A DNA stretch of 60,974 nucleotides from Gammaproteobacteria bacterium (GTDB lineage: Bacteria; Pseudomonadota; Gammaproteobacteria; UWMA-0217): contig JALSHZ010000081.1 in assembly GCA_026981985.1 (NCBI GenBank), forward strand, positions 1 to 60,974, given 5' to 3'. Shown here in pieces: positions 3,207-31,905 of this stretch. The notes below the pieces were generated by a model. It ran no database searches, was not told where the DNA came from, and worked only from the letters and a program-made list of their open reading frames with translations. Position numbers and translations under genes: made by a program. Positions within the stretch are counted from its first letter, which is position 1, and the number at the start of each line of letters is the position of its first letter.

Positions 3207-3222
3207 TTGACCGGCCAGTCAA
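3207..3222. promoter_or_regulatory. TetR-type operator (site 1)
   Basis: TTGACCGGCCAGTCAA is a 16-bp near-perfect palindrome ending 15 bases before the ATG of the TetR-family gene. It fits TTGACYGNNCRGTCAA, which recurs at 3897 and 3992 before tusA and at 31890. The position suggests autorepression. That the adjacent regulator binds it is inference from location and repetition. Confidence 0.6.
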
Positions 3223-3237
3223 TTCAAACTTGGCCAC

Positions 3238-3846
3238 ATGAAACATTCCATCGGCACCAAAGATCGCATCATCGAAGTCGCCAAGCAGCGCTTTCATTCG
3301 CGCAGCTATGCCGACGTCGGTATCAAGGAAATCTGCGATGCAGCAGAGATTCAGAAAGGCAGCTTTTATCACTTCTTCCCTTCCAAACGGGATCTGGTGC
3401 TGACCGTTATCGAGGAATTCTCAGCCGACTGGGCCAGCGGATTTATTGCCGAAGCCTTCGACCCGGCGCTGCCGCCAATGGAGCGATTCGACTACCTGGT
3501 CGATGCCGCCTATTTCTGGCAGAAGTCGAGTCAGACCAAAGACGCCGATGGGCGCATGCCCGGCTGTCTGTTCGGCAATCTCGCGCTGGAGATCAGCACC
3601 CGGGACGAAGTATTGCGGGCCCGCCTCAGTTCATTCTTTCGCCTTGCCCGGGATCGGTTCCGCGAAACGCTGGAGGAAGCCGTCTCACGTGGGGATATTC
3701 CCCCCCTGGATACGACCAACACCGCCGAGGCCATGCTGGCATATCTCGAAGGCGTGATTCTGCTCGCCAAGAACCAGAACGACCCAGAGTTGATCTATCG
3801 TCTTGGCCCGGCCCTCAAGTCACTCCGAATCGAACTCAAACAGTAG
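3238..3846 (+). CDS. TetR/AcrR-family transcriptional regulator
   Basis: A 202-residue one-component repressor. Residues about 8-55 form the TetR DNA-binding domain: KDRIIEVAKQRF, then the helix-turn-helix VGIKEICDAAEIQKGSFYHF and SKRDLV. The C-terminal ligand domain (about 70-200) has the arrangement DxxxQMPGCLFGNLALE-like seen in stress-responsive TetR proteins (here RMPGCLFGNLALEIS). A matching palindrome lies directly upstream and two more lie before the downstream tusA-dsrE pair, so it probably represses itself and that sulfur-trafficking unit. The ligand is unknown. Confidence 0.88.
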   Translation: MKHSIGTKDRIIEVAKQRFHSRSYADVGIKEICDAAEIQKGSFYHFFPSKRDLVLTVIEEFSADWASGFIAEAFDPALPPMERFDYLVDAAYFWQKSSQTKDADGRMPGCLFGNLALEISTRDEVLRARLSSFFRLARDRFRETLEEAVSRGDIPPLDTTNTAEAMLAYLEGVILLAKNQNDPELIYRLGPALKSLRIELKQ

Positions 3847-3896: not shown

Positions 3897-3912
3897 TTGA
3901 CCGATCGGTCGA
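3897..3912. promoter_or_regulatory. TetR-type operator (site 2)
   Basis: TTGACCGATCGGTCGA contains the perfect 12-bp palindrome GACCGATCGGTC and matches the half-sites of site 1. It lies between the TetR gene and tusA, about 135 bases before the tusA start. Confidence 0.55.
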
Positions 3913-3991: not shown

Positions 3992-4007
3992 TTGACCGAA
4001 CGGTCAC
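3992..4007. promoter_or_regulatory. TetR-type operator (site 3)
   Basis: TTGACCGAACGGTCAC carries GACCG-AA-CGGTC, the same half-sites as sites 1 and 2, and ends 24 bases before the tusA ATG. Its first hexamer TTGACC could double as a -35 element, which would let a bound repressor block polymerase directly; that is inference. Confidence 0.55.
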
Positions 4008-4031: not shown

Positions 4032-4265
4032 ATGACGATCAATATCACAGAAACACTCGACACCACCGGGCTCAACTGTCCTTTGCCAATCCTGAAAACA
4101 CGCAAGGCCATTGCGACACTCGACAATGGCGCGCTATTGAAGGTAGTCGCCACTGACCCCGGCTCGGTAAAGGATATTTCATCGTTCTGCTCCCAGACCG
4201 GCCATGAACTGATCGAATCATCCGAAACCGATGGCCAATTCCATTTTCTGATCCGCAAACAATGA
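4032..4265 (+). CDS. tusA: TusA-family sulfurtransferase
   Basis: A 77-residue cytoplasmic sulfur carrier. The hallmark Cys-Pro-x-Pro motif is at C16-P-L-P19 in DTTGLNCPLPIL; the cysteine carries persulfide sulfur. The remainder follows the TusA/SirA fold (LKTRKAIATL, then VVATDPGSVKDI). A GAGAGG ribosome site precedes the ATG. It is followed after 7 bases by a DsrE2-like gene, the TusA-DsrE2 pairing known from sulfur-oxidising bacteria, where they pass sulfane sulfur toward oxidation enzymes. Two TetR-type operators lie upstream. The neighbourhood favours a sulfur-oxidation role over tRNA thiolation. Confidence 0.9.
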   Translation: MTINITETLDTTGLNCPLPILKTRKAIATLDNGALLKVVATDPGSVKDISSFCSQTGHELIESSETDGQFHFLIRKQ

Positions 4266-4272
4266 GGAGAGC

Positions 4273-4728
4273 ATGATGAACAGTGCTGAAATTACCCGCA
4301 TCGACAACGGCTCGATTCCCGAAGATCTCGACGCCTGGTTCGATCAGAAGTTCGAAGAAAAAATGCAGGAACGTGAGGCGGCCCACACACCGTCGATGAC
4401 GATCATCGCGACCAAGGGGACGCTGGATATGGCTTACCCGCCCTTTATTCTTGCCTCGACCGGTGCCGCCCTTGGCTGGGATGTCTCCATTTTTTTCACC
4501 TTCTATGGCCTGGCCCTGCTGAAGAAAGATCTCGATCTGAAAATCAGCCCGCTCGGCAATCCGGCCATGCCGATGAAAATGCCGGAAGGGCCACGATGGT
4601 TGCAAGACCGCGAGTTGACGATTCCAAACGCCATCATGTCGATCGTACCCGGATCAGTGACTGGGTCGGTGCGGCATCGTTTTTACCAACCGCACAAAAA
4701 GCTGACGTCAGTCTGTTTGTGTAGCTGA
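4273..4728 (+). pseudogene. DsrE2-like protein with internal deletion and frameshift
   Basis: The reading frame begins as a normal DsrE/DsrF/DrsH-like (DsrE2) protein: an N-terminal helix, then IATKGTLDMAYPPFILAST, IFFTFYGLALL and NAIMSIVPG (to about 4653). It then leaves the family and ends at 4728 as an unrelated tail. The family's true C-terminus is present in another frame: DWVGAASFLPTAQ followed by KADVSLFV and a TAG at 4722-4724. The middle segment that normally carries a conserved cysteine and the MTxDVFGY-like block is missing. An internal deletion of roughly 50 codons that also shifted the frame explains this. The encoded 151-residue protein probably has no sulfur-carrier activity. 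Confidence 0.72.
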
Positions 4729-4809
4729 GGAGTCCGGGCTAGGTTAGGGGTAAGGCGAATGAATTCGCCCCTACTGGTATGGCGCTCGGTTGGGCTTCAC
4801 ATTGAACAT

Positions 4810-9218: not shown

Positions 9219-10139
9219 TCAGTTCTGCATCATCAGGCGGCGTGGTAGCAACTTCCCTTCGCTGAACTGGCCCAGGCCAATAAACCGCCCGCTCGCCGAA
9301 TAGATCCGGCAGCGTGCATTGTCGGTGCCGCCGGGCCAGTCCAGTGCCTGACCATGGACGATGCGTGCCGACTGTGCTGTATCCAATGTCACTGCGGGCC
9401 AGTGAGGCAGCGCCTGATCCATCGGCAGCAGCAGTTCATCGAGTGCCTCATATCCTCTAGCCGCCAGCGATTCGAGTTCGGTCAGTGGCACCATGTCTCT
9501 GCCCTCGTAGGGATCGACATGGCGGCGTCGCAGCATCGTCACATGCCCGCAACTGCCGAGCGCGGCGGCAATATCCTCGACCAGGGTGCGTATATAGGTG
9601 CCTTTAGAGCAGCTGACTTCGAGCGAAAAGCTTTCACGCTCGATATTCGTCACCACCAGCCGGCTAATGGTCACCGGTCTTGGCTCCCTTGCAACGACCT
9701 TGCCTTCACGCGCCAGTTCATAGAGCGGACGACCATCGCGTTTCAATGCCGAATACATCGGCGGAACCTGCATGATATCGCCGCGAAACTGCTGCAATAC
9801 TGCTTCGAGCCGCCGCCTGTCACAAGCGGGAACGTCCATCTGCTGAACGACTTCGCCTTCGGTGTCGCCGGTGGCCGTTGCCATACCGAGGCGCGCCGTT
9901 ACCGCATAGTGCTTGTCGGCATCCAGCAGCCACGACGACAGCTTGGTTGCTTCCCCAAGACAGATTGGCAACATGCCGCTGGCGAGTGGGTCCAGCGCAC
10001 CGGTATGCCCCCCCTTGCGCGCCTTGAACAGCCGGATCACCTGTTGCAGCGCGGCATTCGAACTCATGCCCAATGGCTTGTCGAGCAACAGCACACCGCT
10101 GACATCCCGACTGCCGGGACGTTTGCGCCCGCGCCCCAT
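9219..10139 (-). CDS. truB: tRNA pseudouridine(55) synthase
   Basis: Makes the universal pseudouridine 55 in the T-loop of tRNAs. The catalytic aspartate is in GHTGALDPLASGMLPICLGEATK (about residue 48), preceded by the VLLLDKPLGMSSN motif. The 306-residue length is normal, with a small C-terminal domain. It starts immediately after the rbfA stop. A run of repeats follows its stop, so transcription may partly end there rather than continue into rpsO. Confidence 0.97.
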   Translation of the reverse strand: MGRGRKRPGSRDVSGVLLLDKPLGMSSNAALQQVIRLFKARKGGHTGALDPLASGMLPICLGEATKLSSWLLDADKHYAVTARLGMATATGDTEGEVVQQMDVPACDRRRLEAVLQQFRGDIMQVPPMYSALKRDGRPLYELAREGKVVAREPRPVTISRLVVTNIERESFSLEVSCSKGTYIRTLVEDIAAALGSCGHVTMLRRRHVDPYEGRDMVPLTELESLAARGYEALDELLLPMDQALPHWPAVTLDTAQSARIVHGQALDWPGGTDNARCRIYSASGRFIGLGQFSEGKLLPRRLMMQN

Positions 10140-31889: not shown

Positions 31890-31905
31890 TTGACTGAACA
31901 GTCAA
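31890..31905. promoter_or_regulatory. TetR-type operator match (site 4), palindrome downstream of tRNA-Leu
   Basis: TTGACTGAACAGTCAA is a near-perfect 16-bp palindrome; with flanking AAA/TTT the arms reach 10 bp. It fits TTGACYGNNCRGTCAA of the TetR/tusA locus. Twelve bases further, GATCGGTCGATC also appears, as it does next to site 2. An alternative is a short-loop hairpin ending the tRNA-Leu transcript, but the two-base spacer and lack of a T-run argue for a protein site. Confidence 0.45.

Follow-up and report, generated by a model that had tools for sequence, protein, structure and literature searches.

A long-form dsrE2 broken by a 166-bp deletion in a TetR-tusA-dsrE2 module of a gammaproteobacterial draft assembly

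Introduction

The known sulfur relay comprises TusA, rhodanese, DsrEFH, and DsrC, with DsrE2 possibly involved, according to PMC4175335. We analyzed a stretch of 60,974 nucleotides from a sulfur-oxidizing gammaproteobacterium (contig JALSHZ010000081.1 of assembly GCA_026981985.1; referred to here as the window) in which a dsrE2 gene lies directly downstream of tusA, as in tusA-dsrE2 clusters. The 127 N-terminal residues of this gene and its stranded C-terminus clearly belong to the DsrE2 family (NF047629 and PF13686; the subgroups DsrE2A and DsrE2B of PMC4175335). Unlike members of that family, the window gene is without 55 residues that hold the conserved cysteine, and its frame is broken. 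Its N-terminal extension also marks it as part of a long clade, which the passages of that paper on DsrE2 do not cover. An earlier note, made from the sequence alone, had proposed that an internal deletion broke this dsrE2 and that the sulfur relay might be either defective or served by another copy.

Disruption of the dsrE2 reading frame

The ORF at positions 4273 to 4728 (plus strand) encodes 151 amino acids. Profile matches, homologue translations, and conserved columns assign its codons 1 to 127 (4273 to 4653, plus strand), the in-frame remnant of a long-form dsrE2, to the DsrE2 family up to ...IVPG, which ends at 4653; the frame is lost after that point. The ORF passed the cut-off of the Pfam profile DrsE_2 (PF13686), but the match covers only profile positions 3 to 68 of 156, and against the NCBIfam profile SulfCarrDsrE2 (NF047629) it scored 114.9 bits, below the 210-bit cut-off, over positions 5 to 68 of 159. 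The sequence actually translated beyond the break is an off-frame tail, SVTGSVRHRFYQPHKKLTSVCLCS (4654 to 4728, plus strand, with the stop at 4726 to 4728).

The family C-terminus, ISDWVGAASFLPTAQKADVSLFV, is stranded in another frame (4653 to 4724, plus strand), which begins at 4602 and ends with a stop at 4722 to 4724; that it can be read directly after IVPG agrees with the earlier note. This C-terminus is nearly identical to that of close homologues (for example, SDWVGAASFLPTAQKADVSLFI in loci L005 and L043), and the resemblance is therefore far beyond chance. The frame is disrupted, with family parts readable on both sides, as in a pseudogene. Because the profiles are not matched over their full length, we designate the gene a pseudogene of the DsrE2 family rather than a working member.

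Size and content of the deletion

For comparison we scored 80 homologous loci in which PGF was readable, the C-terminal motif and a stop were present, and the length exceeded 170 residues. They came from relatives and from a scan of species genomes, in which we took the best 80 of 566 confirmed candidates, a choice that favors intact, close copies; contig-edge, short-form, and decayed loci were left out, and a few loci represent the same genome counted twice. The interval between PG and the residue pair preceding the W/YxGA motif (WVGA) is 56 residues in 79 of the 80 loci and 55 in the other (L096). The window has 2 bases at this interval and has therefore lost 166 bp (166 mod 3 = 1), a size that comes from a protein-anchored count, as no gap opened by itself when the window was placed in a multiple DNA alignment. 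The junction lies at 4653/4654 (plus strand), with an ambiguity of 1 to 3 bases. These comparisons bear out the proposal of an internal, frameshifting deletion; the loss, put at about 50 codons in the earlier note, amounts to 55 1/3 codons.

The missing middle was also expected to carry a conserved cysteine, and the cysteine of the C[QLN]MTV motif does lie inside this stretch in all 80 scored loci and is absent from the window gene. The lesion is present in the assembly, and the cysteine is missing. The closest relative in sequence with a solved structure is 2QS7, which PMC4175335 terms a DsrE2B; in alignment, the deleted part corresponds to its cysteine region. An alignment of 77 distinct homologous proteins has 64 columns with a conservation of at least 95%. 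The deletion takes out 16 of these, and the window keeps all of the other 48. Homologues sharing the shortened C-terminus, which the earlier note had named as evidence against a lesion, were sought, and none occurred among the 80 scored loci.

A short dispersed genomic repeat (4747 to 4784, no strand assigned; 26 other matches in the genome) lies just downstream of the gene, and repeats of this type form regularly spaced sets on some contigs. Considered as a cause of the deletion, it finds no support, as it is about 90 bp from the junction and outside the deleted stretch.

Long and short forms of DsrE2

In a tree of 17 long and 19 short rows, long DsrE2 proteins, with their WFD...KM extension, separated from short ones with a branch support of 100/100. 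The N-terminal extension WFDQKFEEKM identifies the window gene as a long form, and in the tree it falls within the long clade, where its end branch is short and its nearest neighbor is the copy from G002, a genome of the same family. Given this place among the long forms, the window gene is no recent duplicate of the other dsrE2 in its genome. Long and short DsrE2 co-occur in several genomes as separate clades, which argues that the two are not fully interchangeable.

A DsrE2 match, long or short, was found in 150 of the 369 genomes searched, which were drawn from the class, and most long forms among the matches listed reach the end of the query. Among the rows classified, the long copies in G037 (one contig) and G046 are interrupted by several frameshifts and/or stops, and the short copies of both genomes are intact. 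These genomes resemble that of the window in having lost the long form while retaining an intact short form, whereas their long copies have accumulated several disruptions and the window copy has one clean deletion. Two further candidates for decay were rejected: in G318 (L146) a segment is repeated around a scaffold gap, an assembly fault, and the fragment in G083 (L149) begins at a contig end. True decay and false breaks both occur in this gene.

The TetR-tusA-dsrE2 module

Upstream of dsrE2 lie two intact genes, both recognized by profiles. The first, at 3238 to 3846 (plus strand), encodes a TetR-family regulator of 202 amino acids (TetR_N and TetR_C_13). The second, at 4032 to 4265 (plus strand), is tusA, whose 77-amino-acid product with its CPLP motif matches the earlier description of this gene as intact. 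A palindromic operator-like site with one mismatch to TGACCGNNCGGTCA precedes tetR (3208 to 3221, no strand assigned) and is found at the same place in relatives. A motif scan located two more sites upstream of tusA, one with one mismatch (3898 to 3911) and one with none (3993 to 4006), neither assigned to a strand.

Other TetR-tusA-dsrE2 modules (for example, L004/L064, L032, and L039) share the gene order of the window and have conserved operators, and their long-form DsrE2 proteins are about 74 to 82% identical to the window remnant over its length. The long-form dsrE2 genes of such modules in the aligned sample are intact (198 to 209 amino acids), in contrast to the broken window copy. Among the best 80 of the 566 candidates, 8 of which have a short upstream flank, the same-direction genes upstream of the long dsrE2 include both TetR and tusA in 43 loci, TetR alone in 7, tusA alone in 8, and neither in 22. 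Downstream of the long dsrE2 in these 80 loci, no gene formed a cluster of at least six members.

In 38 of these 80 loci there is a TetR of at least 60% identity with tusA downstream. Sites with at most two mismatches to TGACCGNNCGGTCA occur near the tetR start in 37 of the 38 (an upstream match in L083 was left out of this count) and in the tetR-tusA gap in 37 of the 38. Shuffles, which preserved base composition only, predict about 0.55 sites in all, for a motif that was first read from the window's own sites. The conservation of these sites suggests that they are likely the operator of this TetR. The module thereby forms a regulated unit in which the regulator and operators are intact and the last gene is broken. 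The TetR-operator module is the new element of our analysis and a more useful by-product than the dsrE2 lesion, as the conserved operator provides a direct handle on regulation of the module. One additional operator-like site, TGACTGAACAGTCA (31891 to 31904, two mismatches), lies beside a stretch that looks tRNA-like by eye and may be due to chance.

A second dsrE2 and the sulfur relay

A whole-genome profile search recovered DrsE_2 at two loci. One is the window gene; the other, on contig C75, is an intact short form of 156 amino acids that scored 285 bits against the 210-bit cut-off. Profiles and ORFs give the gene order on C75 as a rhodanese-like gene, dsrE2, and dsrA, followed by dsrB, dsrE, dsrF, dsrH, dsrC, and dsrK. 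In this dsr-linked cluster (L003) other ORFs are, from their appearance, presumably dsrM, dsrL, dsrJ, and dsrO. Rhodanese and dsrE2 genes at 9607 to 10477 of L003 directly precede dsrA, with no tusA nearby, and this cluster differs from the rhd-tusA-dsrE2 order published in PMC4175335. The analyzed stretch of the C75 dsr contig yielded no TusA match; the genome has two tusA genes, the window copy and one on contig C62.

The intact dsrE2 in the dsr operon and the second tusA indicate that the relay is probably not defective, which speaks against one of the two outcomes suggested earlier. The other, that another dsrE2 copy serves instead, is upheld by the intact gene on C75 between the rhodanese gene and dsrA. 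Even without the window dsrE2 the parts of the relay are present, and the window tusA may continue to serve it.

Origin of the lesion

We consider the window gene to be a recently inactivated long-form dsrE2, the last gene of a TetR-tusA-dsrE2 module, whose loss was tolerated as that of a redundant paralogue (probability about 0.7). One deletion of 166 bp, its ends showing hardly any repeat or none, would have taken out 55 1/3 codons and with them the CQMTV cysteine, which is taken to be the sulfur carrier. The same deletion would have shifted the retained C-terminus out of frame, leaving a product of 127 native and 24 foreign residues. This 151-amino-acid product is expected to lack sulfur-carrier activity, a loss of function predicted from the sequence. 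The deletion would have been tolerated for two reasons: the dsr operon holds an intact DsrE2 of its own, preceded by rhodanese and followed by DsrEFH and DsrC, and TusA, a component in common with the relay, is intact both here and at a second locus. We infer the redundancy, and also that the organism itself carries the lesion and not just its assembly. We read it as the ordinary, recent loss of a redundant paralogue, of low interest in itself.

The loss of the long dsrE2 is probably real and recent. However, an assembly or strain-mixture artefact has to be weighed, in which the long dsrE2 of the organism is intact and the assembler either bridged two ends separated by 166 bp or picked a minority variant. 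We regard this as somewhat unlikely. The remnant keeps all 48 conserved positions outside the deletion, and therefore the break must be either very recent or such an artefact; the remnant has no further decay, and an assembly error would look the same. The draft nature of the assembly (149 contigs), the false break in the same gene in the G318 assembly (L146), and the break of the G001 assembly in the neighboring tetR are all in keeping with an artefact. However, comparison with homologues by eye reveals direct repeats of at most about 3 bases at the ends of the deletion, which suggests that there was little to misguide an assembler. In addition, a clean 166-bp deletion is an unusual assembler error, and the whole-profile search of the genome assembly, which returned only the two DrsE_2 loci, found no leftover fragment with the missing segment. 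G001, the only genome of the same genus, is uninformative on the deletion because its contig ends inside tetR and because its anti-sigma gene borders a different gene; tusA and the long dsrE2 are absent from its assembly.

If reads confirm that a recent deletion inactivated this gene, then the genome is a natural experiment that separates the long DsrE2 from the dsr-linked one. A broader and doubtful proposal is that the long DsrE2 has its own role in a TetR-operator-controlled, probably sulfur-sensing module and is lost repeatedly while TetR and TusA stay, with the module TusA then feeding the Rhd/short-DsrE2/DsrEFH line of the dsr operon.

It is very unlikely that the 151-amino-acid protein is a functional, shortened DsrE2 in which the CLCS cysteines of the tail replace the lost one. 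The ORF is open and follows closely behind tusA, and the off-frame tail does contain two cysteines by chance. However, no such shortening is seen in any of the 80 scored homologues, the gene has lost 16 conserved columns as well as the segment that corresponds to the 2QS7 cysteine region, and the C-terminus retained out of frame reveals the accidental origin of the tail. Still more improbable is a ribosomal or transcriptional frameshift that joins both parts of dsrE2 into a shortened in-frame protein, for although no stop interrupts the C-terminal frame between the junction and 4722, the 55 codons are gone from the DNA, so that the cysteine is not restorable, and no slippery site is obvious by eye at GTACCCGGATCAGTG.

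Annotation of sulfur relays calls for caution: where a tusA-dsrE2 pair is taken for a sulfur relay, its dsrE2 may be dead and the functional copy may be located elsewhere.

Flanking regions

At the end of contig C25 of G001 (L168), an anti-sigma/sigma/pnp block borders a different gene, which is amidohydrolase-like by eye, and thrC is only about 40 bp from tetR in the same locus. The borders of this block and the position of thrC indicate that the flanks of the module were rearranged between the two species. In the window, positions 2201 to 2538 contain intergenic, tandem-like repeats that code for peptides of the RRSTSSIPG type, between genes that we take to be thrC and a DNA glycosylase-like gene.
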